A stretch of DNA of 64,000 bases from Pararoseomonas sp. SCSIO 73927. Its GTDB lineage: Bacteria; Pseudomonadota; Alphaproteobacteria; Acetobacterales; Acetobacteraceae. This document shows positions 10,624-29,554 of the stretch, in pieces. The notes beneath the pieces were generated by a model. The model saw nothing but the letters and a program-made list of their open reading frames with translations. It was not told where the DNA came from and ran no database searches. The stretch lies in NCBI RefSeq assembly GCF_037040815.1, contig NZ_CP146232.1, positions 496,001 through 560,000 of the forward strand, given 5' to 3'. The position numbers and the translations under genes were made by a program. Within the stretch, counting starts at the first letter, position 1, and each line of letters opens with the position of its first letter.

Positions 10624-10741
10624 CGCCGCCGCTTTTGCCGCAGCGCGGGGGGAAGGGCCAGGGGCCGCGAAGGGATCGGCCGCGTTGACGCGGGTGCGGC
10701 TGGCGGTGAGAAGCGAGGGCGGGGAACCGGGGAGAAACCGC

Positions 10742-11587: not shown

Positions 11588-11596
11588 GGGGCGGCG

Positions 11597-11965
11597 CTAG
11601 GGCACCCAGGCGGGGAAGCGGTGCAGGCCGTTCCCGCCCAGCGGAAGGAAGACGGCGCCGCGCACGGCGCTGAGTGGCAGCGGCGCATAGAGATGGGGGA
11701 ACAGGCCGGGGCGCTTGCCGCCGGCGGCCGATTCCCAGCGCAGCGCCTCGCCGAGCGCCGCGCTCTCCGCGCTGACGAGCCACAGGTCGGGCTCGCCCGC
11801 GCGGTGCTTCGCGGCGCTGGCGCGCAGCTGGGCGGCGGTGGAGAAGTGCAGGAAGCCGTCCCGCCGGTCGTCGGCGCTGCCGTGATAGGTGCCGGCGGCC
11901 TGCGCGGCGCGCCAGTCGGCGCCGCGCATCAGGGTGTGGACCAGGGGCTCGGACGGGGCGGTCAT
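11597..11965 (-). CDS. DUF952 family protein
   Basis: A 122-aa soluble protein with the DUF952 pattern. VHTLMRGADWRAAQAAGTY opens the domain, then the DGFLHFSTAAQL segment with its conserved His, then DLWLVSAE and a closing FPHLYAPLPLSAV. The family folds like ADP-ribosyl-transfer enzymes but has no agreed activity. It is the first gene past the phage-type lysis genes, on the same strand, 38 bp after the endolysin stop. It is probably host DNA rather than part of the cassette. Confidence 0.85.
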   Translation of the reverse strand: MTAPSEPLVHTLMRGADWRAAQAAGTYHGSADDRRDGFLHFSTAAQLRASAAKHRAGEPDLWLVSAESAALGEALRWESAAGGKRPGLFPHLYAPLPLSAVRGAVFLPLGGNGLHRFPAWVP

Positions 11966-12003
11966 ACCCCGCTTCAAGCGCGGGGGCGGGCCGGCGTCCA
12001 GGC

Positions 12004-12534
12004 TCAGGCCGCGACCAACCCGGCGACCAGCACTGGCGCGGTCGGGGCGGCGGGGCGGGCGCCGGTCTCCAGGCGGTAGAAGAGCAGCCCGCCGACCTCC
12101 TCCACCGGCATCCGCGCCAGGGCCCAGGCCGGCAGCTCCTCCTCCGGGTGCCAGTGGGTCGCGCCGCCGGTAGGGTCGCCCAGCGTGCCGCCGACCGCGC
12201 GGACGGCGATCCGGCGGCAGATAGCAAGCGCCGGGTCTCCGGGCGGGGGCGCGTCCAGCAGCGCGTGGGCGGGGTGGCGGGGGTTGCGGCTGGGGAAGAG
12301 GAAGGGGTCGCGGCAGGCGGCCGCCACCTCCTGCGCCCCCGGCTCCGGCAGGCGGGCGTGGCCGCCCCGCGCGAAGGGCGCCGCGCCGGGGATGCGGGGC
12401 GGTCGGGGCACCGCGGCGCGGGCGCGGTTCACGGCCAGCGCCGCCAAGGCCTCGATCGCGCGCACGGGGCGGCGCCCGGCCTCGGCGTAGAGGGTCCGGG
12501 CCAGGGTCTCGGTGGCGTCCCGGGGGATGGTCAT
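12004..12534 (-). CDS. SleB-like cell wall hydrolase (phage endolysin)
   Basis: A 176-aa Hydrolase_2-family protein that should cut peptidoglycan for host lysis. LARTLYAEAGRRPVRAIEAL carries the conserved glutamate (TIYGEARGE in relatives) and is followed by the expected AVNRA. The C-terminal GATHWHPEEELPAWA matches the conserved GA-x-HW segment. There is no signal peptide, so export would need a holin. The start lies 2 bp past the stop of the preceding small membrane protein gene, as in a lysis cassette. Confidence 0.85.
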   Translation of the reverse strand: MTIPRDATETLARTLYAEAGRRPVRAIEALAALAVNRARAAVPRPPRIPGAAPFARGGHARLPEPGAQEVAAACRDPFLFPSRNPRHPAHALLDAPPPGDPALAICRRIAVRAVGGTLGDPTGGATHWHPEEELPAWALARMPVEEVGGLLFYRLETGARPAAPTAPVLVAGLVAA

Positions 12535-12536
12535 GG

Positions 12537-12908
12537 TCAGCGGTCCTCGGCAAGCACGCGCATCTGCGCGGCGGTGCTGTGGGCGGCGCGCGTGGCCTCG
12601 TCGAGCTTCTGCTCGATGCGGATCAGGTGCGCGGTCAGGCGCCCGTCCACGTCGCGGATGAGGGAGAGGGGAACGTAGGTGCGCGCCACCTCCAGCTTGA
12701 AGGCGGCCAGGTCCTCCCGCGTGCGCTCCAGCGCCGCGTTCTGCTGGGCGGGGTCGGTGCCGGGCTTGCAGGGGATCAGAGGCGGGAGGGCATCGGGGGA
12801 TTGCGCGATGGTGCGGCGGAGCGAGTGGAGCATCCACGCCAGCAGCGCCATCAGGGGGGTCTCCACCGCGGCGGAGATCCACTGGGGATCGGTGGGAAAG
12901 GACGGCAT
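12537..12908 (-). CDS. Small membrane/coiled-coil protein, putative holin or Rz-like lysis protein
   Basis: A 123-aa protein with one candidate membrane segment near the N-terminus (TPLMALLAWMLHSL) followed by a charged, helical region rich in Glu, Arg and Ala (QNAALERTREDLAAFKLEV). One anchor plus a coiled coil resembles Rz-type spanins or class III holins. Its place directly before the endolysin supports a lysis role. No signature motif proves it, so the assignment rests on topology and context. Confidence 0.6.
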   Translation of the reverse strand: MPSFPTDPQWISAAVETPLMALLAWMLHSLRRTIAQSPDALPPLIPCKPGTDPAQQNAALERTREDLAAFKLEVARTYVPLSLIRDVDGRLTAHLIRIEQKLDEATRAAHSTAAQMRVLAEDR

Positions 12909-13022
12909 GGGTCCTCCTTCGTCGGCCAGGCGGCCGGATCGGCCGTGGTTTCAGCCGGGGTTGAAGCGGGGATGCGCCGCCCCGACTTGCCGGGGCAGGG
13001 CGAGGGGTGCTTTGAGCGGGCG

Positions 13023-13244
13023 ATGTGGAACGAGCCGTATCTTGAGACCTGCTGCCGGGCGGCCCTTCACCGGCTGTTCCTGACGCATGGCGGCACCCGC
13101 CCGGCGGGATTGCCGGACGAGGCCTGCCTGCGCCGCCTCTGCACCATGGGCTTCGCCGAGGAGGTGACGCCCGGGCGTTTCGAGATGACCCCGGCCGGTT
13201 CCGCCCGGCACGCGAGCGAGGTGCTGAAGAACTCCGCGGCCTGA
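13023..13244 (+). CDS. Hypothetical small protein, opposite strand within phage cassette
   Basis: A 73-aa protein beginning MWNEPYLETCCRAALHRLF. The end, GFAEEVTPGRFEMTPAGSARHA, looks like the wing of a winged-helix fold, but no family is recognised. It is the only plus-strand gene between the repressor and DUF952. It ends 5 bp from the convergent large terminase stop and starts 114 bp from the lysis gene start. An in-frame ATG at 12972 would add 17 residues. Protein-like composition supports it as real; function unknown. Confidence 0.6.
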   Translation: MWNEPYLETCCRAALHRLFLTHGGTRPAGLPDEACLRRLCTMGFAEEVTPGRFEMTPAGSARHASEVLKNSAA

Positions 13245-13249
13245 GGCGT

Positions 13250-14695
13250 TCAGGCGCCCCGCCAGGACGCCCCGCGCGGCGCCGGGGGTAGTCCGGCCAT
13301 CCGCACCGGCTCGGCCAGCAGGCAGCCCGCCACCGCGTCCAGCGCATCGTCCCGCACGCCCGCCGCGCCGGGCTTCCACTCCATCATCTCCCGCGGGAAG
13401 GCGGTGCGGAACACCGCCTCGTGCGCGTGCAGGCGGCGCGCGGCCATCACCGGGTCCAACGCGCCGAGGATGCGCTCGTGCTTCGCCTTGCTGCTGTGGT
13501 GCTCCGTCACGGTGCAGGCGGCGCCGGCGCGGGCCATCTCCTGCCGCAGAAGCGGCGGCAGGAACTTGCCAATACCGTTCGTCTCCACCCGCACCACCGG
13601 CAGCAGCAGGTCCTTCGCGATCTGCGCCACGCGGCGGCACTGCTGCGTGGCGGGATCGGGCTGCGCCTCCGGGTCCTGGGTGATGTAGGCCAAGCGGTGC
13701 AGGTAGTGGTTCCCCTCCCCGTCGCAGAAGGTGGCGGCGAGGACGCTGGAATCCCCCTTGCCTTCCCGCCCGTAGGCCGGGTCCCAATACCCGCCGCCGG
13801 AGACGAGGCGGCGGCCGAGGAGGGAGAGGACCGGCCGCCCGTTCGCCTCGCGGTAGTCCGGCTCCTCGCCGTAGCGGACGAGGAGCGCGGGATCGAGCCG
13901 CGCGGCGCCGGAAGAGGCGCATTCCAGCATCATCTGCCGCCGGAACTGTAACGGCCCCACGCGGTCCTGCAGGGCGCGGATGGTCTCGCGCGGGAAGCGC
14001 TCCGGCCAGGCGCTGCGGCCGCCCGTGTTCATGACGGGAATGCGCAGCCGCCGGTAGGTGGCGAGGTAGGCGCCCTCCGTCTCCGCCGGCGCGTAGAGGC
14101 TCTCCGCGCAGTGCGGCGTGCCGACGAAGAGAATGGTGCCGCCCGGCGTCAGGATGAACTCGCACTCGGAGAGGCGCTCGCGCAGCTCCTCGCGCTTCCC
14201 CGGCGTGTCGCAGTTCCCCGCCACCTCCACGTCGTCGCAGACGATCAGCTCCGCCCGCGCGCCCGTCACGTTGCCGCCGATGCCCTGGGCGAGCATCGAC
14301 GGTTCGCGGATCGCGCCGGGGCGGCGCACCGTGAAGCGGTCCGTCGCCCACATCCCGCCGCCGCCTAACAGGTGGCGGCAGAGCGGGTGGCGCTCAATGA
14401 TCTTCCGCACCGTCGCCACCATGCGCGCCGCCAGCGTGTGATCGGCGGCGAGCACGAGAACCCGCAGTTCCGGCTGGACGGAGAGGCGCCACGCGCACCA
14501 AAGCCCCACCAGGGTGGACTTGCCGCAGCCGCGGAACGCCATCAGCAGCAGGCGCCGGTCCTCCCCCGCCTGGCGCGCCATCAGCCAGCGCGCCATGCGG
14601 CGGTGCACGCCGGGGGTGTTCACCCCGGCGCGCAGGTTCCAGGCGTAGAGGAATTCCAGGAAGTCGGGCTGGAGCCCTTCAGGCGGCGTCGTCAT
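13250..14695 (-). CDS. terL: Phage terminase large subunit
   Basis: A 481-aa DNA-packaging motor. The ATPase domain carries Walker A with Lys59 (AFRGCGKST) and Walker B at residues 150-156 (LIVCDDVE), followed by the coupling segment ILFVGTPH. The nuclease domain begins near residue 303 (YWDPAYG) with Asp315, and ends with the metal-binding DDALDAVAG. All catalytic motifs look intact. The start overlaps the small-subunit gene by 17 bp. Position after the tail fibre matches T7 gene 19. Confidence 0.93.
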   Translation of the reverse strand: MTTPPEGLQPDFLEFLYAWNLRAGVNTPGVHRRMARWLMARQAGEDRRLLLMAFRGCGKSTLVGLWCAWRLSVQPELRVLVLAADHTLAARMVATVRKIIERHPLCRHLLGGGGMWATDRFTVRRPGAIREPSMLAQGIGGNVTGARAELIVCDDVEVAGNCDTPGKREELRERLSECEFILTPGGTILFVGTPHCAESLYAPAETEGAYLATYRRLRIPVMNTGGRSAWPERFPRETIRALQDRVGPLQFRRQMMLECASSGAARLDPALLVRYGEEPDYREANGRPVLSLLGRRLVSGGGYWDPAYGREGKGDSSVLAATFCDGEGNHYLHRLAYITQDPEAQPDPATQQCRRVAQIAKDLLLPVVRVETNGIGKFLPPLLRQEMARAGAACTVTEHHSSKAKHERILGALDPVMAARRLHAHEAVFRTAFPREMMEWKPGAAGVRDDALDAVAGCLLAEPVRMAGLPPAPRGASWRGA

Positions 14696-14984
14696 CCTCC
14701 GGTGTCTCCTCGCCTTCTTCCTGTTCCGCCAGTTGGATGGAGCGGCGGGCCTCCGCGATCAGCGCGCCCGCCTCGGCCACCGCGTCCGTCTCCACCTGCC
14801 CCTTGTCGAGCTTCATCAGGTGCTCGAGATGCGCGAGGGCGGAGCGCGCCGCCGCGTGGTGGGCGGTGAAGGCCTTCGGGTCCTCGTGCGTGCCGGGGGC
14901 CGGCCCGCGCGCGACGAAGGCCTCGTAATCCGCCACCACCTTGCGGATGGCGCGGCGCAGCTCCTCCGGCGTCAGGGGGCTCAC
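14679..14984 (-). CDS. terS: Putative terminase small subunit
   Basis: A 101-aa acidic helical protein beginning SPLTPEELRRAIRKVV and ending in a Glu/Asp-rich tail (EEGEETPEDDDAA). It would recognise DNA and load it onto the large terminase, whose gene it overlaps by 17 bp. The GTG start overlaps the fibre gene stop as GTGA, giving translational coupling. Size, acidic tail and position match T7 gene 18. Similarity alone is too weak for certainty. Confidence 0.65.
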   Translation of the reverse strand: MSPLTPEELRRAIRKVVADYEAFVARGPAPGTHEDPKAFTAHHAAARSALAHLEHLMKLDKGQVETDAVAEAGALIAEARRSIQLAEQEEGEETPEDDDAA

Positions 14985-17263
14985 GTCTTCACCGCCCGCA
15001 CGCGCACCGTGCCGGGGTTCAGGTCGATCGCCGCGCCGCTGCGGTTCCAGGCCGTGACGGTGATCACGTCCTGCGCCCCCACCTGGGCGAGGAACATGAC
15101 GCCGGAGGTGGAGAGGCTGAAGGCCGCCTGGACGAAGTCGCCCGGCCGCACCCCCGTGCAGGGCACGTTGAGCGAGGCCGAGGCGCCGGCGGCGATGGAA
15201 GGCGGGTCCCACGGCGCCTCCGCCTTCAGGTCCCGCGCCCCGTGCGGCAGCTCCGGCGTGCCGTAGAGCACGGCCGGGCTCTGCGAGGGATCGCAGGCCA
15301 GGCGCATGCTCCGCACCTCGTAGTCGGTCCCCACGCGCGCCACGCCGATGATCGCCGCCTGCACCTGCGGCGCCAGGCGGATCACCTGCAGCCGCGTCAG
15401 GTTCGCGTCGTTGCTGTCCGCGTTGCCCTGCCACCACCGCGGCCCCTCCACGTAGGTGAGCGACATGCCGGAGGCCCGCACCATCGCTCCGTCCGCCGCG
15501 GTGAGCAGCGCGCCCCCCGCGCCGAAGCACTGGATGACCATGCGCGGGTCGTCGGCGTCCACCGCCAGCGCGAACTCCTTGCACTTGCGCGCATCGACCA
15601 CGAAGCCGAGGCCGCGCCCGCCCGGCAGGATCACGCCGCGATCCGTCAGCACGTAGCCCTCGAGCGACGGGAAGGCGAATTGCGGCAGGACCGTCGGCGC
15701 GTTGCTGACATTGGTGGAAAGGCAGGCCAGCCTCTCGAAGCCCGTCTCCGTCGCGCTCCAGCGGATGGCCGCCGCGCGCAGGTTCGGCACCTCCGCCAGC
15801 GTGCGGGTGGCCTCCCGGTGCGCCGCCGCCTGGTGGAAGCAGCGCACCACGCTCCCCACGCGCGTCGCGGTCGCCGCGTAGTCGATGTCCACCCCGTAGG
15901 CCTGGCTGGCCCAGGCCACCTCGTAGAGGTGATCCTGTGCCCCGGCGGTGTGGCGGGCGACGTAGGCGTCGCAGCCCTCCATCCGGACGTTGCGGGCCAC
16001 CACGGCGCGGGAGTTCACCTCCATCAGGAAGGGGATGCCGTCGATCGGCCGGTCCCGCGTCTGCAGCTCGAAGGCCGGCCCGTCGAAGACGTGGCGGTTA
16101 TGCGCGACATAGGCCCCCGGCGCGGCGGAGAGACGGACGCCGTAGCGGTCCTTGTCCGGATAGGTGGCCAGGGAGTGCGCGAAGTGCCCGCCATAGTAGC
16201 GCACCGAGGTGTTCCAGGCCGCCGCGCTCGCCGTACGCACGTCCAGCCCGTAGCGGTTGTCCACGATGCGGCCGAGATGGAGCACGGTGTCCTCGAAGCC
16301 GCGCTCCACGCCCAGGGTCTGCACGCCGATGGTGAACATCTCGGCCTGGCGGACCTCGATCAGCCCGGAATCCTGGTTGCGGATGAGGATGCCGATGTCC
16401 CGCTCATCCTCCCAGGAGGAGAGGCCGGCGCGCAGCACGCGCAGGCCGAGATACATCTTCGTGCGGTTCCGCACGTTGCCGCCGTCGCCCAGAGTCAGCG
16501 CCGCCTCCCCACCCGCGCCGGCGTAGAGGATGGCGCCGCGCATGGAGAGACCCGCCGCGGCGCCGGGAAGCGTCAGCGGGAGCGTGGTGCGATAGGTCCC
16601 CTCCCCGATATCGAGGAACTTGCCGGAAGCCGCGGCCGCGTTCATCGCCGCCTGCAGCGCCGGCCCGTCATCCGTCACCCCGTCCCCCGTCGCGCCGAAA
16701 TCGCGCGCGGAGAGCCGCTCGGAGAGCTTGTCCTCCACCGTGCGCGGGATCGCGCCGGGGAAGGGTGCGGAGAGCGTCGCCTCGCCGCGGGAGAAGGTGG
16801 CGATGTCGCCGAGGCTGTCGAAGCCCAGCAGCCGGTTGGCGCGGGCCCCGCGCTGCGGCAGCACGAACCGCCCGCCGGCCTCGCCAGGCCCCTGCCGGAC
16901 CGTACCGGTCGCCTCCTCCCGCACCTCCTGCAGCGCGGCCATCTGCCGGTCCAGCTCGTCGTTCAGCGTGCTCGCCCGCAGCACGCCATTGGGCTGGTAG
17001 TCCGTCACCCGCTCCATCCTGAGGTGGCGCCGCAGCACCACCCTGGCGCCGGCCGCCGGCGCCACGGCGAAGGTGACGAGGCCCCCCTCTGAGTTCCCGG
17101 CGCCGGAGACGGCGTAGCCGGCGCCGATGGAGAGGCCATCGACGTGCACCGCGAGATCCGCGGCGCCGAAGACGGGAAAGGGATAGACGAAGGCGGTCTG
17201 CGCGCCATCGGCCACGTACTGCACGCGCGGCGCGATGTCGCCGATGCGGATGTGCTCGGCCAT
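14981..17263 (-). CDS. Tail fibre/tailspike with T7-fibre N-terminus and pectate-lyase-like beta-helix
   Basis: A 760-aa receptor-binding protein. Residues 1 to about 130 resemble the T7 tail-fibre anchor domain (YVADGAQTAFVYPFPVF, then YQPNGVLRASTLNDELDRQ). From about residue 185, SARDFGATGDGVTDDGPALQ marks a pectate_lyase_3-type right-handed beta-helix that may bind or degrade surface polysaccharide. The C-terminal third is of unknown fold, probably for trimerisation. The frame is intact, so this gene is not obviously decaying. It overlaps the small-terminase start by 4 bp. Confidence 0.85.
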   Translation of the reverse strand: MAEHIRIGDIAPRVQYVADGAQTAFVYPFPVFGAADLAVHVDGLSIGAGYAVSGAGNSEGGLVTFAVAPAAGARVVLRRHLRMERVTDYQPNGVLRASTLNDELDRQMAALQEVREEATGTVRQGPGEAGGRFVLPQRGARANRLLGFDSLGDIATFSRGEATLSAPFPGAIPRTVEDKLSERLSARDFGATGDGVTDDGPALQAAMNAAAASGKFLDIGEGTYRTTLPLTLPGAAAGLSMRGAILYAGAGGEAALTLGDGGNVRNRTKMYLGLRVLRAGLSSWEDERDIGILIRNQDSGLIEVRQAEMFTIGVQTLGVERGFEDTVLHLGRIVDNRYGLDVRTASAAAWNTSVRYYGGHFAHSLATYPDKDRYGVRLSAAPGAYVAHNRHVFDGPAFELQTRDRPIDGIPFLMEVNSRAVVARNVRMEGCDAYVARHTAGAQDHLYEVAWASQAYGVDIDYAATATRVGSVVRCFHQAAAHREATRTLAEVPNLRAAAIRWSATETGFERLACLSTNVSNAPTVLPQFAFPSLEGYVLTDRGVILPGGRGLGFVVDARKCKEFALAVDADDPRMVIQCFGAGGALLTAADGAMVRASGMSLTYVEGPRWWQGNADSNDANLTRLQVIRLAPQVQAAIIGVARVGTDYEVRSMRLACDPSQSPAVLYGTPELPHGARDLKAEAPWDPPSIAAGASASLNVPCTGVRPGDFVQAAFSLSTSGVMFLAQVGAQDVITVTAWNRSGAAIDLNPGTVRVRAVKT

Positions 17264-17300
17264 TAGGATTCTCCGGTTCCGCCGCGTGGGCGTGGGGTTG

Positions 17301-17741
17301 TCAGTCCAGCAGGCTCTTCACGACGCGGCCGAGGCCCTGCCCCGCGCGAACCCAGTTGTTCAGCGAGGTGTCCCCATCCAGCAGCGATCGGCGATTGGCC
17401 GAGAGCCGCGCGGCGTAGACCGTGTCGTCCGCGCCCTGCGCCTCCGCCGCCGCGGCCCGCAGCCCGGCCGCCATGGCGGCGCCGGACCCCTCGTTCGGGC
17501 TCACCCCGCCCGCCGCCAGCCGCGCGCGGGAGGAGGCGATGGTGCGGTCCAGCGCGCGCTGCCGCTCCACGGAGTTCTGCGCGGCCTGCGCGGCCAGCAC
17601 CTCCTCCTGCGCCTGCTGCTGCACCTGCGCGTTCGCCTGCTGGATCTGCGCGTTCTTCTTCTGCCGCTTCGCCGCCTCCATCTGCGAGTAGATGGAGGCG
17701 CCGGTGGCGGCGAGCGTCACCACGGGGGCAAGCTGTGCCAT
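17301..17741 (-). CDS. Small phage virion protein, gp14-like internal protein candidate
   Basis: A 146-aa protein. A short N-terminal hydrophobic stretch (APVVTLAATGASIYSQM) precedes a Gln/Ala/Lys-rich coiled coil (KKNAQIQQANAQVQQQAQEE), and the C-terminal part contains VSPNEGSGAAMAAGL. This architecture and its place after tail tubular protein B recall T7 internal virion protein gp14. The much larger gp15 and gp16 that follow gp14 in T7 are missing. Its start overlaps the upstream stop by 1 bp (TGATG). Confidence 0.7.
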   Translation of the reverse strand: MAQLAPVVTLAATGASIYSQMEAAKRQKKNAQIQQANAQVQQQAQEEVLAAQAAQNSVERQRALDRTIASSRARLAAGGVSPNEGSGAAMAAGLRAAAAEAQGADDTVYAARLSANRRSLLDGDTSLNNWVRAGQGLGRVVKSLLD

Positions 17742-19621
17742 CAGTCGGTCGTCCTCGTCTCGGTGGTCACGGAAAGAAGGGTGAAGGGCAGCGGCGCCGA
17801 ATCCTCGATGCGCCAGAGCGGCGCGAGGCCGTCCCGCCGCCAGCCGAAGGCCCGCAGAGTCACGTCGCCCGTGAAGGCGGCCGGCGGTGCGTCCAGCAGC
17901 GGCCCGTCCAGCCGCCGGAAGGGCACGGGCCGCACGCCGCGGCCGGTATCCACGGCCAGCGCGCCCGTTCCCAGCAGCCGGAAGGTGACGGCGACCAGCC
18001 GCACCGGCCCCATCCGCGCCCCGGCGGCGGAGGCCGTCTCCGGCGGCATCGGCTCCACCACATGGGTGAAGGGAAGCCCCGCCTGCACGCTGCGGGCGGC
18101 GGGATCGACCGAAATCGCCCCGCCTATCACCGTCGCGGGATCGCGCGGCGCGCCATCGGCCACCACCGCGACACGTCGTCCCTCCAGGTGCCCCAGCCCG
18201 GACCAGACCGTGCCGGCGGCGTTGCCGGTGGGGGAGCTCGCCGCGTCCAGCGCCAGCGCGTCGTCGAAGCGCTCCAGCCGGAAGCCGCCGGCGCGCTCCA
18301 CCACCGCGTAGACCGTGCCCTCGATCTCCGCCAGCGAGCGGAAGGCGCCGTCCGTCTCCTGCCGCGTCCAGCCCGTGACGCCCTCGGCCCGGTAGATCGT
18401 CAGCGTCGCCAGCCCGCCATCCGCCACCGCCAGGTGCAGCAGGCGCCGCCGGGAATCGTAGGCCATGGCGACGGGCGAGACGATCAGGTGCCGCGCCGCC
18501 AGCGCCAGGTCGTCCGCCTGATAGGCCTGCTGCAGGTCGGTGTAGGAGAACTCGTGCACCGCCCGCCCGGAGCGCCCGACGAAAACGGTGGATCCATCGA
18601 CGTCGAGGGGCGGCACGCTGCGGTCAGCGGGCGACCCCACGCGGGTCTGCCGCGTCACCTGGATCGAGGCGGGGGTGAGCGGATCGCCCGTCACCATCCA
18701 TTCCGCGCCCGAGGTGAAAACCTGCAGGTGCCGCCCCGCGAAGACCGCGCGCACGGCGTTCAGCTGATCCGACACCAGCCCGAAGGCGATCGCCTGGTCG
18801 TCCAATCCTTCCCCGAGATCGAAGTTGAACGGATCGGCGGTGCGGGAGAACCACAGCCAGTTCGGCAGGCTCCGCGCACCGCCCAGCACCAGCCGCCCCT
18901 GGTGGAAGCAGGCGCTGGTGGGCCAGCCGCGCACCGCCCCGAAGGCGCTCTCGTCCCACTCCGCGATCGCGTCCGTGCCGGGCAGCGTGTCCTGCACCGT
19001 CGCCGTGACCGCCGTGGGCGAGGTGCGGCCCGTGACGAGCACCCGCCGCCCCGCCAGGCGCAGCCGCACCCCCACATGCCCGGCCTCGAACACGGCGGCG
19101 GAGGCGGTGATCGTCACGCTCCCCGTCGTTGCGCTCGGCGTCAGCGTCACCCCGGCCGGCGCGAAGCGGTGGAACGGCTCCGCGCCGAAGGCCATTGGCC
19201 GCACCGACCACTCGCCGGACGGCGCGCGGGCGATGATCTGCGGCCGCATGTCCCGGTGCAAAAGCAGCAGCATCTCAGCGTTCTGCGTGAACGCGATCTG
19301 CGGCAGCATCGCCTCCGTCCAGGGTCCGCCCAGCTCGACCACCGAGGTGTCGCCCTGGAACACGCGCACCGCACCCTCGCGCAGCGCGAGCAGGTGGGTC
19401 TGCTCCGTGCTCACCTCGAACGGCACCAGCCGCGCGCGGCCCGGCAGGGTCGCGATGTGTCGCAGCCCCGGCCGGCGCTGCACGCCGCCGGTGGGCTGGA
19501 TGAAGATGTTGCGGAGCCTCGCCGCCCCGTTGCCCCAGGCCGGCACGTCGCCGCGCCCAAGCAGTTCCGGCGCCAGCTCCCCGGCCGTGAAGGCCGTCTT
19601 GGCGCGCTTGATGACGGGCAT
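17741..19621 (-). CDS. Phage tail tubular protein B-like (nozzle) protein
   Basis: A 626-aa structural protein. Its N-terminus (FTAGELAPELLGRGDVPAWG, then IFIQPTGGVQRRPGLRHIA) is the typical opening of podovirus tail proteins that form the distal tube. Later segments such as FHQGRLVLGGARSLPNWLWFSRT are also typical of the family. It follows the tail tubular A gene after a 5-bp gap, as genes 11 and 12 do in T7. The frame is uninterrupted. Confidence 0.85.
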   Translation of the reverse strand: MPVIKRAKTAFTAGELAPELLGRGDVPAWGNGAARLRNIFIQPTGGVQRRPGLRHIATLPGRARLVPFEVSTEQTHLLALREGAVRVFQGDTSVVELGGPWTEAMLPQIAFTQNAEMLLLLHRDMRPQIIARAPSGEWSVRPMAFGAEPFHRFAPAGVTLTPSATTGSVTITASAAVFEAGHVGVRLRLAGRRVLVTGRTSPTAVTATVQDTLPGTDAIAEWDESAFGAVRGWPTSACFHQGRLVLGGARSLPNWLWFSRTADPFNFDLGEGLDDQAIAFGLVSDQLNAVRAVFAGRHLQVFTSGAEWMVTGDPLTPASIQVTRQTRVGSPADRSVPPLDVDGSTVFVGRSGRAVHEFSYTDLQQAYQADDLALAARHLIVSPVAMAYDSRRRLLHLAVADGGLATLTIYRAEGVTGWTRQETDGAFRSLAEIEGTVYAVVERAGGFRLERFDDALALDAASSPTGNAAGTVWSGLGHLEGRRVAVVADGAPRDPATVIGGAISVDPAARSVQAGLPFTHVVEPMPPETASAAGARMGPVRLVAVTFRLLGTGALAVDTGRGVRPVPFRRLDGPLLDAPPAAFTGDVTLRAFGWRRDGLAPLWRIEDSAPLPFTLLSVTTETRTTD

Positions 19622-19626
19622 CGCGA

Positions 19627-20193
19627 TCAGCCCCGCACGCCGATAAGAGGGAAGCTCTCGATGGCCCGCGGCGTCGCCTGCTGGCTGTCCGCCAGCCGCG
19701 CCTGGCGCAGCTCCGTCTCCGCGATCCGGTGCAGCATATCCGCGCGCGATGTGCTCTCCGTCAGCGGCAGGCAGAACTCCGCCGCCAGCCGCGCGACGAG
19801 GGCCGCAGCGAAGAAGGGCGGGAACTCCGCTTCGGCCGGGCGGAACACGTAGGTCAGCGTTACGCGGTAGGGATCGGCGTGCAGCCGCCCCTCGTTGATC
19901 CGGTAGGCGATGCCCCGCCCGCGCCCGCTGCCCGCGGAGATCACGCGCAGCAGCCCCGCCGGCAGCTGGAAGGCGTTGGAGAAGTCGGCCACCGGCACCG
20001 CATCCAGCCGGTTCAGCTCCATCTGCCCCGTCGCGAAGGACCAGGGATGACAGGAGAGCAGCGCGTCCCGCGTGCCCGGGTAGAGGTTGGCCGAGACCTC
20101 CGCCTCGGCCGTCCCCTCCTCTAGGGAGGCGATGGGCTGCGCGCCGACCTTGAGCAGCGCGCGCGAGCAGAGGGCGAGGGCGGACAGCGCCAT
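19627..20193 (-). CDS. Phage tail tubular protein A-like adaptor
   Basis: A 188-aa head-tail adaptor. ALCSRALLKVGAQPIASLEE opens the protein and LYPGTRDALLSCHPWSFAT follows, both typical of tail tubular protein A, which sits between portal and nozzle. The ATG gives family length. It is 216 bp downstream of the capsid gene start-to-stop unit, beyond a strong hairpin, so it may be transcribed at a lower level than capsid. Confidence 0.85.
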   Translation of the reverse strand: MALSALALCSRALLKVGAQPIASLEEGTAEAEVSANLYPGTRDALLSCHPWSFATGQMELNRLDAVPVADFSNAFQLPAGLLRVISAGSGRGRGIAYRINEGRLHADPYRVTLTYVFRPAEAEFPPFFAAALVARLAAEFCLPLTESTSRADMLHRIAETELRQARLADSQQATPRAIESFPLIGVRG

Positions 20194-20370
20194 CGGTTCG
20201 GTGCCTCCAGAAGAGGTTGTCGGAAGGGCTTGCGCGGGGGCCGGCGCCGGAGCGGCCGCGAACGTCGCGCCACGGCGTGCGCGGAACAGGCGCGAGTCAC
20301 CGTGCGCCGGCCTCACGCGCCACGCGCACCGGCCGGGGCCGCGGCGCGCTCGTCGTCTCGGGAGAAGGAG

Positions 20371-20399
20371 GGGGCCGCGCGGCATCGCCGCGCGGCCCC
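20371..20399 (-). terminator. Strong hairpin after capsid gene
   Basis: A perfect 13-bp GC stem (GGGGCCGCGCGGC) with loop ATC begins 10 bp past the capsid stop. There is no long T tract, so it may terminate imperfectly or protect the 3' end of capsid mRNA. The rest of the 20194-20409 gap holds no gene. Confidence 0.6.
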
Positions 20400-20409
20400 G
20401 GGCAGGCGA

Positions 20410-21243
20410 CTACTCCGCGGCGCGCATCCGCACGACACCGGCGCCATCGATCAGCACTGCGCCCTGGCTCATCATGTTGTTCACGAAGTGCGCAGCGCGG
20501 TCGCCGTGCCAGGTGATGTCGGTCATCACGTCCTGCGCCACGGCGTGGCCAATCGCCGTGCGGTGGTAGAAGTAGCAGAAGCGCAGGTTGCCGCTCCTCG
20601 TCAGGCCGGAATGCGGCATCCACAGCGCGCCGAGCCAGCGCTTCGCCTGCATGCCCTTCCAGGGAAGGTCAGCGTCGCCGATGTAGTCGGAATTGGCGAA
20701 CTCCTCGATCTGCAGCAGCTGGCTCCACTGCTTCCAGCCCACCACGGCGTAACGGTTGCCGTCGTCCGGCACGTCGGCGGCGCCCAGCGCCTCGAAGGCC
20801 AGCAGCACCTTCTGCTTCGTCAGCCCGTCCGTGTCGGTCGTGCCGGCCGCGGTGCCCACCGCCTCCTGCGTCGCGGTGTCGAGGGCGGCGATGATCAGCT
20901 CGTCCGTCTTGCGCCCCAGCGCGTAGGCGCCGGCATTGGCCACCACGGCGCGCTCGTCCACGCTGGACTTGATCTCGTCCAGCTTATCCACCCACTCGCC
21001 GGCGTAGTAGTCCTGCAGGAAGCACTCCACCGCGGAGTAGTCGAGGTTCATCACGGGCACCACGCCGTTGCGCGCCTTCGCCGCCGCCGTGCCCTTCCCG
21101 ACGCGGGGGAAGACGGTGGAGGCACCGGCAATGCCGGTCTTGGAGCGCACGGTCGGGCGCAGCTTGCTGCCCTGGCGCTGATAGGCCTCGTGCACCTCGG
21201 CCTGAAACTGCTTCACGAAAGCCTGGTCGATCGTGGCGGACAC
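20410..21243 (-). CDS. Major capsid protein
   Basis: A 277-aa phage capsid protein (podovirus type, not HK97-protease type). SATIDQAFVKQFQAEVHEAY opens it, followed by TVFPRVGKGTAAAKARNG, YAGEWVDKLDEIKSSVDERAVVANAGAYALGRKTD and a late VGWKQWSQLLQIEEF. A GTG start is used because GGAGG lies 5 nt upstream; the longer frame to 21300 adds unrelated residues. It follows scaffold in T7 order but is set off by a 451-bp gap upstream and a hairpin downstream, as expected for the most abundant product. Confidence 0.87.
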   Translation of the reverse strand: MSATIDQAFVKQFQAEVHEAYQRQGSKLRPTVRSKTGIAGASTVFPRVGKGTAAAKARNGVVPVMNLDYSAVECFLQDYYAGEWVDKLDEIKSSVDERAVVANAGAYALGRKTDELIIAALDTATQEAVGTAAGTTDTDGLTKQKVLLAFEALGAADVPDDGNRYAVVGWKQWSQLLQIEEFANSDYIGDADLPWKGMQAKRWLGALWMPHSGLTRSGNLRFCYFYHRTAIGHAVAQDVMTDITWHGDRAAHFVNNMMSQGAVLIDGAGVVRMRAAE

Positions 21244-21431
21244 GCGGTCCTCCTTCGAAATGGGTTTGGGGCACGATGGAGGCGGCCGACCGGTTGGCAC
21301 GGTGAATCCACGGGGCGAACCGGGGGCGAACCGGGGCCGGGCGGCGCTCGGAACGGCGCGCGCCCGCCGCGGCCCGTGGACGGGGTCCAGGGGCCGGGCG
21401 GGTTGATCGCGCCGGAAAGGGAGAAAACGAG

Positions 21432-21465
21432 AAGGGCCCCGCTCCGCCGTGCGAAGGGGGCCCTT
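21432..21465 (-). terminator. Putative rho-independent terminator upstream of capsid
   Basis: Nine-bp arms AAGGGCCCC (21432-21440) and GGGGCCCTT (21457-21465). Read on the minus strand, the stem is followed by CTCGTTTTCTCC, a T-rich tail, so it should stop transcription coming from the scaffold gene. Confidence 0.55.
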
Positions 21466-21479
21466 TCGGGAAATAGGAC

Positions 21480-21523
21480 GGGGGCGGGCGGCACCAGGGG
21501 GAAGTAGGGTGCCACCCGCCCCC
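21480..21523. repeat. 16-bp inverted repeat
   Basis: Arms 21480-21495 and 21508-21523 pair over 16 bp with one mismatch; the outer part reads GGGGGCGGG. It may be a second terminator or an mRNA structure in the scaffold-capsid spacer. Confidence 0.5.
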
Positions 21524-21616
21524 GTAGCCGGCCCGCACGAGGGGGGATGCGGGACCGGCGCGGACGGGAGCCACCCTTGGGGGGATGCAGTCGGTGACTG
21601 CCCGTCGCATGGAGGT

Positions 21617-21640
21617 ATCGGGAAAACGCCGCTTCCCGAT
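21617..21640. repeat. 8-bp inverted repeat (ATCGGGAA/TTCCCGAT)
   Basis: Perfect arms at 21617-21624 and 21633-21640 with an 8-nt spacer, 55 bp downstream of the scaffold stop on the minus strand. The symmetric, less GC-rich core could be a protein-binding site; a role is not established. Confidence 0.4.
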
Positions 21641-21694
21641 TCCGGTTTCAGTAGCTTACGCAGAAAACCTGAAGATCAGGTTGAGGGTTTTGCA

Positions 21695-22453
21695 TCACCC
21701 TCCCGTGAGCCTCCGGAAGCCCTCCGTCACCTTCCTCACGAAGTCCGGCTCGCGGCTCCGCCAGTAGCGGGGGTCGCGCATCATCTTCCGCAGCGCCGCC
21801 TCGTCCATCGGTTCCGGCGCCGCGCCGCGGCGTGCCAGGCCGGGCTCGCCCTTCTCCATCATGCGGTGCAGCGCGATCACCCCGTCCGCCGTGGTGGAGA
21901 GCGCGGAGACCACCTCCTCCGGCAGGTTGGCACGCCCCCAGGCCGCGATCTGCCTCGCCGTGCGCCGGTACCGCTCCTCCCCGCCGAACTCGGCCCGCAG
22001 CCGGTCCCGCTGGCGCTCCGCCTCGAACTGGCCGGCCGCCTCCGCCACGATCGGCAGCAGCCGCTCCGCCGCCAGGTCGTACACCACCTGCACCTGCGCC
22101 GGGGTGAAGCCTGCACGGTGCAGCATGGCGTTCACCTCGGGGTCGGCCCCCACCAGCTCGTGCCGCTGCTCCACCACGTACTCCTCGGCGGTCTCCGGCA
22201 CGCCGATCGCCCGGCGGAAGCGCTGCCGCTCGTCCTCCGGCGCGTCCTCGGCCGGCGGCGAGAAGCGGGCGGAGAGCTTCTTCTCCAGCTCGCGGTACGA
22301 CTTCAGCAGCGCCTCCGTCCGCAGCGCGCCGCGCTCGGCGTCCCAGAACTTCTCCGGCACCTCCTCCGGCCGCTCGGCCCGCTCGGGCTGCGCCCTCGTC
22401 TCGTCAGGCCCGTCCTCGTGCTTCGGCTCGGCCTCCAGCAGGTTCTCGCTCAT
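21695..22453 (-). CDS. Phage scaffolding (capsid assembly) protein
   Basis: A 252-aa acidic, largely helical protein. Residues about 30-60 (PEKFWDAERGALRTEALLKSYRELEKKL) match the opening of T7-like capsid assembly proteins, and the middle is coiled coil. The C-terminus is basic (RYWRSREPDFVRKV), as needed to contact capsid protein. It would direct procapsid assembly and then leave. The start overlaps the portal stop by 4 bp (ATGA). Confidence 0.82.
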   Translation of the reverse strand: MSENLLEAEPKHEDGPDETRAQPERAERPEEVPEKFWDAERGALRTEALLKSYRELEKKLSARFSPPAEDAPEDERQRFRRAIGVPETAEEYVVEQRHELVGADPEVNAMLHRAGFTPAQVQVVYDLAAERLLPIVAEAAGQFEAERQRDRLRAEFGGEERYRRTARQIAAWGRANLPEEVVSALSTTADGVIALHRMMEKGEPGLARRGAAPEPMDEAALRKMMRDPRYWRSREPDFVRKVTEGFRRLTGG

Positions 22454-23868
22454 GCGGCCTTCTCCTGATTGGGCATCTTGGTGGGCGCGGGCACCAGGAT
22501 GGCGCCCGGGGCAGAAAGGGTGCGGGCTAGGTGACGGGCCGCCGCGGGCAGGTCCACGACCCCCGCCGCCCCCGGCCCCAGCGCCGCCACGGCCTGGAGG
22601 AACAGCAGGGTGTTGGACGCATCCGCACGCCCCTGCACCCGCGCCAGCGGCGACTGGTAGGCGATCCGCGCCTCTCCCCCGTCCAGAGGGATCGGCGGCA
22701 CCTCCCCGCGCCGCCTGAGGATGGAGAGGCAGCGCGCCACCAGCGGCGTCAGCAGCTCCGCCTGCAGCCGGCCATAGGTCGCGCCCAGCAGCCGCGCCGT
22801 CTCCGCGCTCCGCTCCAGCACCTCCGTCGCCGTCATCCCCGGCCGCTGCGGCACAGAGAGCCGGTCCGCCAGCAGGGCGGAACGGATCCGCGCCCGCATG
22901 TCCGCCAGCACAAGCTGCGACACGTCGAAGGACCCTGGCGCCGCCAGCGGCGTCAGCCCGGCCGACCCCACCGCCTTGGGGATGATGCTCCCCGGCTCCA
23001 GCCGCACCGTCGCCGGGTTCAGCACCCCGTCGTCATCGGCCTGCCAGATCCCCGTGGCGGCGATGGAGGCGTTCTTCAGCACCAGCTCCACCACCTTGTT
23101 CGCCGTGCGGATGTCCGGCAGCGCCTTCATCACGGGGCCGCGGCCGTAGGTCTCGCCGGGCGCCTTCATCCAGCGGAAGGCCAGGAAAGGGCTCTCCTCG
23201 AACCGCCCGCTCGCCAGCAGAGTCCCGTTGCCATCCCGCTCCAGCACCGCCGCGAAGCGCGGCCCGGACCGCCCGGGCCACACCGCCTCGATCACGGGGT
23301 GCGTCGCCTCCGGGTCGTCCGACCCGAAGATCCCGGCCGGCAGGCTCGCCTCCGGGTAGCGCGCCGCCATCGCGTCCGCCGTCATCCGCACCAGCCGGAA
23401 CACCGTGTCCAGCCGCCCCGTCGCCCCCTCCTCCAGCACCGCCTCCCGCAGCGGCACCGCGGTGAAGCGCAGGGCGGAGGGCTCGCCCGGCGGGGCCTCC
23501 TCCACCAGCACCACCCCCGTCCCGGCAACCACCAGGTCCAGGAAGGCCTGGTGCATTTCGAGGGCGAAGTTGGACCGGTCCAGATGCCCCTGCAGCACCT
23601 CCGCCGCCCGCTCCAGCACCCCCGGATCGGCGGCCTCGTCCACGGGCGCCAGCCCGAACCAGCGCGACCAGGGCGGCGTCAGCTCCGCCAGCAGGGAGGC
23701 CGCCAGTCCTTCCGCCGCGTCCGCCGCCGTCCCGTCGTACAGCGCCGGCCCGCCCGAGCCCGGGGTGGTGGAGAGGACATGGTCGTAGCAGTCCCGCCAC
23801 ACGCTCTCCCACGGGCGCCGCCGCTCCAGGGCGCGCCCGGCGCGCGCGATGATCTCGTCGGGCGTCAT
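22450..23868 (-). CDS. T7-type portal (head-tail connector) protein
   Basis: A 472-aa portal protein that forms the DNA entry ring. ERRRPWESVWRDCYDHVL, YDGTAADAAEGLAASLLAELTPPWSRWFGL and ETYGRGPVMKALPDIRTANKVVEL are strong family segments. ATG at 23868 is chosen because GAGGGGG lies 8 nt upstream. The longer open frame to 24036 encodes Arg/Pro-rich junk. It overlaps scaffold by 4 bp. The 192 bp upstream of it holds no gene, only a small CGGGCA/TGCCCG hairpin at 24030-24046. Confidence 0.92.
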   Translation of the reverse strand: MTPDEIIARAGRALERRRPWESVWRDCYDHVLSTTPGSGGPALYDGTAADAAEGLAASLLAELTPPWSRWFGLAPVDEAADPGVLERAAEVLQGHLDRSNFALEMHQAFLDLVVAGTGVVLVEEAPPGEPSALRFTAVPLREAVLEEGATGRLDTVFRLVRMTADAMAARYPEASLPAGIFGSDDPEATHPVIEAVWPGRSGPRFAAVLERDGNGTLLASGRFEESPFLAFRWMKAPGETYGRGPVMKALPDIRTANKVVELVLKNASIAATGIWQADDDGVLNPATVRLEPGSIIPKAVGSAGLTPLAAPGSFDVSQLVLADMRARIRSALLADRLSVPQRPGMTATEVLERSAETARLLGATYGRLQAELLTPLVARCLSILRRRGEVPPIPLDGGEARIAYQSPLARVQGRADASNTLLFLQAVAALGPGAAGVVDLPAAARHLARTLSAPGAILVPAPTKMPNQEKAA

Positions 23869-24060
23869 GCCGCGATCCCCCTCTCGGGACGCCGCGGAAA
23901 GAGGGTGCTCTCGCCCATTCGCCGGCCTGCTCCTCTGATTGAGAACCCCGGCCCGAAAAGGGACAGGCCCGGCGCCGGAGGGGACCGGGCCGGGCCTGAG
24001 ACGCTTCAGGAGATCGGGGAGGAAGCCACCGGGCACAGCTTGCCCGTTGTCAGGGGTGTT

Positions 24061-24606
24061 CTAACCGGGCGCCTCACCACCGTAAAGAACATTTTCCTTA
24101 CGATGGGAAAGTTTCTCCAGTCCCCGGAAAAGCCCGTAAGGGGTCACGGCGAAGGGCGCCGCGGGCCCCAGCAGCGCCCGGCACAGCGAGACGCAGGAGA
24201 GCGGCACCACGCCGGGCATGCCCCGCGCCGGTGCCCCCGGCACGAAGGGTCCGAGCACCCGGCACCCGGCCCGCTGCCAGAAGCCCGGTAGGTCGAAGGC
24301 CGGCTCGACCCCGAGCCGCGTCACCAGCAGCCGCCCCGAGAGAGGGTCCAGCACCGTCCATCCCGAATCGTCCCGCAGCCCCGCGAAGCAGTGCCGAAAG
24401 CCCCGGCGCAGCAGCCGCGCCCAGCCCTGGTCCGCCCCGCCGCCGAAAGCGATCCACAGCGCCTGCGGCCGCGAATCGGCCGCGCGGCGATGCCCCGCCC
24501 CCATCGCGTCAACCCCAGCACGCCCGGCCCCCGAACGGCGATCGCCGCCCCGGTCTCCCGGGGTGGCGAGCAGATCGGGCGCCACCACGATCAGCGCCTG
24601 AATCAT
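24061..24606 (-). CDS. Hypothetical protein at head of virion operon
   Basis: A 181-aa soluble protein of unknown family. The N-terminal third is Gly/Arg-rich (about 10-50). The middle, RHCFAGLRDDSGWTVLDPLS, has a conserved-looking His-Cys pair and acidic residues. The end, VVPLSCVSLCRALLG then FAVTPYGLFRGLEKL, is strongly patterned. I recall similar conserved unknowns beside T7-like portals in alphaproteobacterial prophages, but I cannot name the family. The start is 5 bp past the upstream gene stop. Confidence 0.6.
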   Translation of the reverse strand: MIQALIVVAPDLLATPGDRGGDRRSGAGRAGVDAMGAGHRRAADSRPQALWIAFGGGADQGWARLLRRGFRHCFAGLRDDSGWTVLDPLSGRLLVTRLGVEPAFDLPGFWQRAGCRVLGPFVPGAPARGMPGVVPLSCVSLCRALLGPAAPFAVTPYGLFRGLEKLSHRKENVLYGGEAPG

Positions 24607-24611
24607 GGGCT

Positions 24612-24983
24612 TCAGGGCACCGGAAAGGCCACCACGCCGCCCTCGGCCCCGCGCGGCGCCGGCCCCGCCACGATCCCCTTCAGCCGCAGCGGCCAGTCCA
24701 GCCGCTCCATCGCCTCGCGCCACAGCCGGTGGTCGCCGCGCTCCCGCAGGGCGGCCGGATCGGGGGCCGTGCCGCGCTCCCCCCAGATCCGCATGATGCG
24801 GGCATGGGCAAGGTCGATCCGCCGCTGGCGGTACAGCCGGTCCAGGCACTTCACCACGTCGTCCGGCTCGCAGGGCCGCGTCACCAACCCGCGGCCGGAC
24901 ACGATCCGTGCGCCGTCGCGCCGGGCGACGAGGGCGGCCATGGTCCAGAACCAGGCCTCCTCCGCGCTGACGAAGGGCTGCAT
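24612..24983 (-). CDS. Hypothetical protein, first gene of virion operon
   Basis: A 123-aa protein (MQPFVSAEEAWFWTMAALVA) with a basic middle, EPDDVVKCLDRLYRQRRIDLAH, and a second block ALRERGDHRLWREAMERLDW. It is mostly helical and could bind nucleic acid. The start with AGGA 4 nt upstream is preferred; an ATG at 25046 would add 21 residues. It faces the S24 repressor gene across the operator-like repeats and is likely the first gene under its control. Function unknown. Confidence 0.6.
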   Translation of the reverse strand: MQPFVSAEEAWFWTMAALVARRDGARIVSGRGLVTRPCEPDDVVKCLDRLYRQRRIDLAHARIMRIWGERGTAPDPAALRERGDHRLWREAMERLDWPLRLKGIVAGPAPRGAEGGVVAFPVP

Positions 24984-25065
24984 CCTATCCTGGCCTGGGG
25001 CGGTGGAAGGCGTGGCGCGCAGCGCGCCGGCAGAAGGACGGGTCATCGGGGGCTGATCCCTATCG

Positions 25066-25113
25066 GTTGTGAACACAACATGAACATCAACCCACGCCGA
25101 TGTGAACGTCAAG
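25066..25113. promoter_or_regulatory. Phased TGAAC repeats, putative S24-repressor operators
   Basis: TGAAC occurs at 25070, 25081 and 25103, spaced 11 and 22 bp (one and two helical turns), each followed within 2 bp by CAA. The first lies in an inverted repeat GTTGTG-AA-CACAAC (25066-25079). The third overlaps a minus-strand TTGACG that could be the -35 of the virion operon. The cluster sits between the repressor gene and that operon, the expected operator position. Confidence 0.6.
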
Positions 25114-25162
25114 CCGATTCTATGATCGAATTCCTGTTGCCCACAGATTCCTCACCTATAAG

Positions 25163-25807
25163 ATGCCGGGCATGCAGCACAGCGACATCTGGCGCGCGAT
25201 CGACGCGCTGGCGGCGGAGAACGGCCTCTCCGCCTCCGGCCTCGCCCGCAAGGCGGGTCTCGATCCCACAGCCTTCAACCCCTCCAAGCGTATCGGCCCG
25301 GACGGCCGCGCCCGCTGGCCCTCCACGGAGAGCGTGGCGAAGGTCCTCGCCGCCACCGGCTCGGGCATGGACGCCTTCGCCAGCCTCATCACCGGCAATC
25401 TCCGCGCCGCCGCCCGCCCGAGCCGCCGCATCCCCCTGATCGGCCTCGCCCAGGCCGGCAGCTCCGGCTATTTCGACGATGGCGGCTACCCCGTCGGCGG
25501 CGGCTGGGACGAGATCAGCCTGCCGGAGGTCGGCGACCCCAATGCCTACGCCCTGGAGATCAGCGGCGACTCGATGGAGCCGGTCTTCCGGGACGGCGAC
25601 ATCATCATTGTCTCCCCCTCCGCCCCCGTCCGCCGCGGCGACCGCGTGGTGGTCCGCACCAAGGGCGGCGAGGTGATGGCGAAGGAGCTGCTCCGCCAAT
25701 CCGCCCGCCGCGTGGAGCTCGCCAGTCTCAACCCCGCCCACCCGAACTACAGCTTCGGGCTGGAGGAGCTGACCTGGATGCACCGCATCGTCTGGGCGAG
25801 CCAGTAG
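25163..25807 (+). CDS. XRE-type HTH regulator with S24 (LexA/CI-like) peptidase domain
   Basis: A 214-aa repressor. Residues about 8-65 form a helix-turn-helix domain (NGLSASGLARKAGLDPTAFN). Residues about 90-210 form the S24 domain. Ser137 in SGDSMEP and Lys174 in VMAKEL are the self-cleavage dyad, and Ala98-Gly99 in LAQAGS is the likely cleavage bond. RecA-stimulated self-cleavage after DNA damage would lift repression. It diverges from the phage virion operon, so control of that operon is the simplest model. Such regulators also exist as host genes without phage. Confidence 0.88.
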   Translation: MPGMQHSDIWRAIDALAAENGLSASGLARKAGLDPTAFNPSKRIGPDGRARWPSTESVAKVLAATGSGMDAFASLITGNLRAAARPSRRIPLIGLAQAGSSGYFDDGGYPVGGGWDEISLPEVGDPNAYALEISGDSMEPVFRDGDIIIVSPSAPVRRGDRVVVRTKGGEVMAKELLRQSARRVELASLNPAHPNYSFGLEELTWMHRIVWASQ

Positions 25808-25857
25808 GGGCGAGCCAATAGGAGCCAGCCGATAGGCAGCCGGCCGGCGGGCGGCCC

Positions 25858-29417: not shown

Positions 29418-29554
29418 CGCCCGGCCCACATGCCCCCGCGCCCCGGCCGGGTCAACGGAGAGGCACGCCGCCGGGAAATGAGGCGATTCCGCGACAGGGC
29501 GGGTCTGGTTCCCGGAACAAGCGCCTCGCATCGCCCCCCACCGCCTGTATAAGC

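Follow-up and report, generated by a model that had tools for sequence, protein, structure and literature searches.

A chromosomal T7-like virion cassette of Acetobacteraceae is probably a domesticated gene transfer agent

Gene transfer agents (GTAs) are few, and the well-studied ones of Alphaproteobacteria are siphovirus-like. The available text of PMC9662315 defines GTAs as caudoviricete-derived, endogenised elements, often spread over several loci and mostly vertically inherited, and lists six features. For RcGTA, the accessible part of PMC7296036 describes ejection of DNA into the periplasm, with a last step that needs competence-derived proteins. Here we analysed a 64,000-nucleotide stretch of Pararoseomonas sp. 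SCSIO 73927 (contig NZ_CP146232.1, positions 496,001 to 560,000; hereafter the window), in which a minus-strand operon at 12004-24986 and a divergent S24 gene at 25163-25807 on the plus strand form a compact cassette of virion, packaging and lysis genes in T7 order. A preliminary description had proposed a domesticated particle system and named a recent deletion derivative of a prophage as the alternative. Our comparisons support the proposal: the locus is largely fixed and mostly vertically inherited, its measured genes are under purifying selection, and no self-replication genes were found in the cassette. We consider it probable that the cassette is a domesticated T7-like (podovirus-type) particle system, most likely working as a GTA. 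Judged from its genes and their relatives, the best reading is a second, podovirus-type, SOS-linked GTA of Alphaproteobacteria.

The portal gene was present in single copy in all 15 genomes of the window's genus. When 397 family genomes were searched with the large terminase subunit (TerL), the listed matches were bimodal, at either at least 52% or at most 37% identity, and the strong class was found in 117 of 123 sampled genomes from 24 genera and in none of the other 78 sampled Acetobacteraceae genera. Carriers named among the 80 listed of 265 confirmed loci include Pararoseomonas, Roseomonas, Neoroseomonas, Pseudoroseomonas, Falsiroseomonas, Belnapia, Siccirubricoccus and Roseococcus. In nearly all of these genomes (111 of 117) the TerL match was free of stops and spanned about 460 or more of the 481 residues; the gene was broken in G009, G125 and G281 and partial in G151, G212 and G310. 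The host gene lysK lay no more than 30 kb from TerL in 58 of the 64 genomes that listed both on one contig (in 40 others the two were on separate contigs, and 13 had no listed lysK match), and in 56 of those 58, with 12 genera represented, it was upstream on the same strand. At least one ancestral flank gene was kept in 36 of 40 fetched family loci, the exceptions being G013, G034, G096 and G259; the flanks of G010 were inverted. Synteny across the family, which the preliminary description had named as a check on domestication, was largely retained. Presence was not sporadic, an outcome that it had listed as refuting its proposal. In the congener G009, two remnants of the cassette lie about 7.6 kb apart, and other DNA has taken the place of most of the tubular B-TerL stretch.

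In T7 the corresponding genes run portal, scaffold, capsid, tubular A, tubular B, gp14, fibre, terminase. The operon in the window opens with o24612 and o24061 and continues with portal, scaffold, capsid, tubular A, tubular B, a gp14-like gene, fibre, the small terminase subunit (TerS), TerL, a holin candidate and a hydrolase. The features are as follows, from the S24 gene downwards.

25163..25807, plus strand: S24 (LexA/CI-like) repressor (PF00717, E 3.7e-23); the conserved start is probably codon 4
25071..25085, minus strand: GTTCN7GTTC box of LexA (SOS) type, in the gap between S24 and the operon
24612..24986, minus strand: o24612, small conserved protein, first operon gene (codon periodicity, alignment); start uncertain
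24061..24603, minus strand: o24061, conserved protein with an F-x-H-C-F motif (codon periodicity); start uncertain
22450..24036, minus strand: portal, gp8-like (PF12236, E 7e-125); homology from about residue 50
21695..22453, minus strand: scaffold, gp9-like (PF05396, E 2.5e-14)
21301..21694, minus strand: non-coding but conserved gap upstream of the capsid gene, holding a terminator-like hairpin and another of 18 bp
20410..21300, minus strand: major capsid protein, gp10-like (PF19821, E 1.4e-78)
19627..20385, minus strand: tubular A, gp11-like (phrog_394, E 1.4e-42); homology covers the C-terminal ~185 residues of the open reading frame
17741..19621, minus strand: tubular B, gp12-like (phrog_376, E 6e-130)
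17301..17741, minus strand: tentative gp14-like small protein of 146 aa (hydrophobic N-terminus, Q/A-rich helix; alignment)
14981..17263, minus strand: tail fibre or spike, with a T7-type N-terminal part (phrog_1640, E 3e-25) and a pectate-lyase-like part (PF12708, E 1.8e-7)
14679..15005, minus strand: TerS candidate by position (codon periodicity, conserved family)
13250..14695, minus strand: TerL, gp19-like (NF033889 termin_lrg_T7, E 2e-121; phrog_38, E 9e-84; PF22530, E 1.5e-6)
12972..13244, plus strand: 90-aa gene within the cassette, oriented against the operon and separating TerL from the lysis pair (codon periodicity)
12537..12908, minus strand: holin candidate, a small protein with one N-terminal hydrophobic stretch (hydropathy; phrog_29007, function unknown, E 3e-17)
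12004..12540, minus strand: SleB/Hydrolase_2-type cell wall hydrolase, lysis candidate (PF07486, E 0.016 for the window copy alone)

Family matches confirmed the T7-order set from portal to terminase, and no equivalent of gp13, gp15 or gp16 was found in the cassette. The core genes were as first described, while the S24 gene and the two small genes before the portal had to be added. The "internal protein" of the preliminary description is at best gp14-like, its family matching PF24072 weakly in 4 of 13 members (best E 0.18). For the fibre, the T7 fibre N-domain PF03906 scored below its cut-off (E 1e-4), and a Pfam search with the TerS candidate gave no match of weight. Four relatives of the hydrolase matched PF07486 at E 1e-9 to 1e-12. 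The TerL catalytic motifs were intact, as had been noted: K59, D154-D155, E157 and the acidic residues at 305, 315, 449, 450 and 453 did not vary among 17 family TerLs and varied little in a wider 43-row alignment, where the exceptions were the frame-split G125, the cut-off rows G597 and G669, and G626 at positions 315, 450 and 453.

Every measured cassette gene is under purifying selection. Among ten congeners, most substitutions in both the cassette genes and the flanks hit third codon positions. Ratios of nonsynonymous to synonymous substitution (dN/dS) were calculated by the Nei-Gojobori method, with the opposite-strand gene at 12972-13244 left out; they ranged from 0.04 to 0.41 across the cassette and were flank-like. 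Against the two closest congeners, TerL gave 0.115-0.119, capsid 0.11-0.16, fibre 0.13-0.14 and S24 0.04-0.07, and the highest values belonged to the holin candidate (up to 0.41) and the hydrolase (up to 0.39). Terminase and capsid, at 0.11-0.19 overall, showed none of the relaxed selection that the preliminary description had listed as refuting. Since dS was similar in the cassette (0.13-0.40) and the flanks (0.12-0.32), the cassette has diverged together with its host.

Cassette and rpoB trees agreed well above chance expectation. Across 42 genomes, a tree of six cassette genes shared 17 of 39 splits with rpoB (at most 3 in 2000 label shuffles), including 15 of the 23 strong splits in each, and Acetobacteraceae formed one clade in both. 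The Mantel correlation between cassette and rpoB distances was 0.905, and 0.697 among the 20 non-family genomes. Within the family, a seven-gene tree that included the fibre shared 8 of 25 splits with rpoB (shuffle maximum 2) and grouped G003/G013 with G029, contrary to rpoB. Trees of single genes shared 8 to 12 of 25 splits, fewest for the fibre, and the S24 tree shared 14. Trees of portal, scaffold, TerL, S24 and the fibre-free set recovered the window's genus as one clade, and those of capsid, tubular B and fibre did not. As far as these trees go, descent is mostly vertical, with occasional exchange between lineages that affects the fibre most. Fibre identity classes also crossed genera, at 52-56% in some congeners and 62-71% in several other genera, which suggests exchange of the receptor-binding gene.

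The borders of the cassette look like ordinary chromosome. Its GC content of 0.731 lies between those of the flanks (0.738 and 0.727), bearing out the host-like composition noted earlier, and the scanned flank genes are ordinary chromosomal ones, with a HAD gene also present on the DUF952 side.

25858..29420, minus strand: LPG synthase and lysK (class I lysyl-tRNA synthetase)
9565..11965: DUF952, EamA and DHOdh

The reported lack of an RNA polymerase, a DNA polymerase, an integrase and att repeats held for the cassette and the scanned flanks of the window, where early phage genes were likewise not found; the search for phage RNA polymerase and DNA replication genes did not extend to the rest of the genome. 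No direct repeat longer than 10 nt joined 11400-12060 to 25050-26100 (mean in shuffles, 10.7).

The cassette extends well beyond the family. A class-wide sample yielded a portal at at least 52% identity in 48 of 385 genomes from 29 families, a count that includes three with broken portal frames (G446, G749, G579) and leaves out portals at 45-48% (G675, G752, G501, G479, G582, G463, G593) and all lower matches; frame stops were also reported for G740, G526, G531 and G736. Among 24 class-level carriers examined, 17 had all eight core genes and 21 had S24, in the gene order of the window as far as the stretches reach, and lysK, DUF952 or DHOdh lay beside the cassette in 10. Five of the seven without a full core set were cut by contig or stretch ends or read at one locus; no fibre was detected in G626 and G627. 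The 24 comprised G037, G056, G050, G664 at its second locus, and 20 others. Of the best 80 among 196 relatives in IMG/VR, 78 came from contigs no longer than 16.3 kb, and 57 of these contigs measured 11.5-13.9 kb. Two IMG/VR cassette contigs, of 55.8 kb and 21.5 kb, exceed the usual 12-13 kb. MT838907 is a 5-kb record of a phage clone obtained from human faecal samples; it matches portal to tubular B at 45-59% identity and is possibly a cassette fragment.

Seven genomes (G771, G694, G569, G612, G500, G050 and G664) carry the cassette divided into two loci. Locus A, read in six of them, holds S24, o24612 (not in G694), o24061, portal and scaffold; in G664 it is known from a portal match on another contig. 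Locus B was read in all seven and runs from capsid to TerL, with the hydrolase in six. The break falls between scaffold and capsid in G771, G694, G569, G612 and G500, and G664 agrees as far as read. The loci lie 1.2 Mb apart in G771 and 235 kb apart in G694, both single-contig, 160 kb apart in G569 and 141 kb in G612, and on different contigs in G500, G050 and G664; at the distances measured, the cassette cannot be packaged whole as one phage genome. DUF952-DHOdh was kept at locus B in G771, G569, G500 and G050. The same junction in the window is the non-coding gap at 21301-21694, which has no codon periodicity and a predicted structure conserved in 11 congeners, with compensatory changes at 9 of 87 predicted pairs; on this evidence it is a candidate attenuator or second transcription start. 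In G500, G771 and G694, a second stretch resembling the scaffold C-terminus (residues 218-252) lies in locus A, about 240-350 bases behind the scaffold gene.

Genomes without the cassette indicate where it sits. In other families, lysK-S24-DUF952-DHOdh (G036, G038, G044) or lysK-S24-DHOdh (G039, G049) occurs without the cassette, which places the cassette between S24 and DUF952. Cassette-less Acetobacteraceae retain S24: it adjoins o24612 and DHOdh in G016, G019, G027 and G031, accompanies o24612 in G030 and G033, and is alone in G023. A relative of the opposite-strand 90-aa gene, at 51-63% identity, is present in G016, G019 and G027, which retain border genes as if the interior had been deleted between them. 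On the rpoB tree, 17 sampled cassette-less genomes of one family clade look like a single loss, and presence and absence require 9 changes (shuffled minimum 16) in a set of chosen genomes in which carriers are over-represented.

The S24 protein and its upstream gap point to control by DNA damage. The cleavage site A98-G99 and residues S137 and K174 were invariant in 17 members, and the C-terminal part resembles CI and LexA. GTTCN7GTTC is given as the LexA box of Caulobacter in the consulted portion of PMC12700426. Of 40 family carriers, 32 have this exact box in the S24-operon gap, compared with 0.4% of base-shuffled gaps, and the same motif lies upstream of the window genome's own recA and lexA. 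SOS control of the cassette is therefore likely within the family, with LexA, S24 or both presumably binding the divergent gap. Four of the six cassette-less S24 and o24612 loci (G019, G027, G030, G033) also have a LexA-type box, and o24612 may have an SOS role of its own. Its predicted model was all-helical at low confidence (pLDDT 72.7), with no significant fold match and no PDB sequence match of weight. Homologues numbered 4331 among 8000 scored candidates, and the 120 listed were hypothetical or unnamed apart from one "DUF2285 domain-containing" protein.

If the cassette is a GTA, DNA damage would relieve repression by LexA, and perhaps by a self-cleaving S24 repressor, at the divergent promoter gap, and a damaged minority of cells would make portal, capsid and tail. 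TerL would have no phage genome to select and would fill the heads with host DNA, a likely cargo given that no self-replication genes were found in the cassette. The holin candidate and hydrolase would then lyse the cell, and the conserved fibre would bind kin. In T7, gp15 and gp16 form a periplasm-spanning tube and its inner-membrane part. Since a gp14-like gene is kept and no equivalents of gp15 and gp16 were found, the DNA probably ends up in the periplasm, from where competence proteins of the recipient would import it by analogy with RcGTA.

Several observations weigh against a working GTA. The cassette is known from its gene sequences. At 13.8 kb, the one-locus cassette would fit inside a head as large as that of T7, and in G050 the break parts the capsid gene itself (residues 20-251 in locus A, 227-296 in locus B). 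Cassettes are damaged in G009, G281, G125 and G238, and a whole sampled clade of Acetobacteraceae lacks the cassette. The family seven-gene tree and rpoB form 11 strongly supported conflicting pairs, and among single genes strong conflicts are most frequent for fibre and portal, with four each. Eight of 40 family carriers lack the LexA-type box, and it occurs exactly, in either orientation, in only 7 of 22 class-level gaps. The gp14-like call is weak, and hhalign of its family with gp14 of Pelagibacter phage Hodr was not significant.

Four other explanations for the same genes were considered. A T7-like prophage, or a recent deletion derivative of one, that returns to one site and depends on the host or a helper for replication would account for the intact virion genes, the CI/LexA-like repressor at one end, the exchange evident in the tree conflicts and the place of the cassette among viral contigs in IMG/VR. 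It is hard to reconcile with a site fixed in 12 genera by lysK linkage and found in further families, with host-like dS and with two unlinked loci in seven genomes, and neither an integrase nor an att site was found in the cassette or the scanned window flanks. We regard it as very improbable; the recent deletion derivative in particular is strongly disfavoured by one locus shared across genera and families and by the unlinked loci. A PICI-like phage satellite with its own capsids, moved by a helper, would suit the compact size, the capsid and terminase genes and the phage-type repressor. That no integrase or att site was found there again argues against this, as do near-universal presence in carrier genera, the two loci in some genomes and the encoded tail and lysis genes, and we give it even less credence.

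Domestication could also have produced a weapon or carrier in the manner of PBSX that has lost DNA delivery. A retained fibre, lysis genes and an SOS-type box fit a particle released upon damage, and genes like gp15 and gp16 for ejection were not found. However, TerL retains its ATPase and nuclease residues in different families and has a low dN/dS (0.12-0.19), which implies that DNA packaging is still selected. To our knowledge, podoviral tails correspond to no known tailocin type, a further point against a weapon, which we judge unlikely. An ancient prophage decaying and kept by chance would explain the four damaged copies, yet the near full-length TerLs without stops and purifying selection in every measured gene leave this close to negligible. 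A domesticated GTA thus accounts best for the locus. Its fuller history can be proposed only tentatively, the parts taken together falling a little short of probable: a second, independently domesticated, class-old T7-type GTA may have been seated early between an SOS-type S24 regulator and DUF952-DHOdh, may have shed the inner ejection proteins of T7 because competence lets recipients take up the DNA, and may have replaced the RcGTA type or been replaced by it, with a tendency for a lineage to retain just one of the two.

If this is correct, one bacterial class made DNA-sharing machines from more than one kind of phage, with the T7-like kind in 29 sampled families, and the reasons for which GTAs persist could be tested in many culturable hosts. 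One set of "viral" database contigs, of ~12-13 kb, would be explained as host genes, and the scaffold-capsid split and apparent loss of gp15 and gp16 would offer direct handles on phage domestication.

No T7-like or podoviral GTA of Alphaproteobacteria or Roseomonas was found among the listed results from mostly non-subscription literature, and a look for such terms in PMC11841831 and PMC13236601 gave none. Alphaproteobacterial podoviral prophages of PhiGT1, LUZ24 and Mx8 type resemble the cassette in their podoviral structural modules and partly vertical descent; by description, they differ as ~40-kb prophages that were sought by integrase and att, and the term "gene transfer agent" is absent from the accessible part of that account (PMC10386132). 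The capsid of Hodr, an isolated phage, is 42% identical to the cassette capsid. Hodr differs in its 34-kb genome, with many further genes annotated as hypothetical, and in genes of gp15 and gp16 size that the cassette lacks: between tubular B and fibre it encodes a 159-aa internal virion protein (gp14-like), a 783-aa product without a family match and a 1247-aa gp16-like product, where the cassette has only the gp14-like gene. FpGTA of Faecalibacterium, as described in the available text of PMC12946183, likewise has short-tailed-phage genes, in two operons ~125 kb apart in one strain, and its authors showed particles. Compared by that description, FpGTA differs in its Gram-positive host.

RcGTA-type structural genes were not encountered, and the RcGTA marker TIGR02218 was not found in the window genome. 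In a small sample, it was present in 2 of 40 carriers versus 5 of 18 non-carriers (Fisher p 0.025, ignoring relatedness), and the three strongest matches were in G038, G039 and G044, which have the S24 locus without the cassette. Among the six features of GTAs, three were borne out here: caudoviricete-derived portal, capsid, tail and TerL proteins, recognized by gene similarity; endogenisation at a fixed host site, with two loci in seven genomes; and mostly vertical descent, with congruent trees and strong conflicts at some nodes. Like RcGTA and the Rhodogtaviriformidae, as the consulted text of PMC9662315 presents them, the cassette is endogenised, at two loci in some genomes, mostly vertically inherited and wide in Alphaproteobacteria. 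RcGTA is siphovirus-like with a long tail according to the available text of PMC7296036, whereas the head, tail and TerL of the cassette are T7-like.

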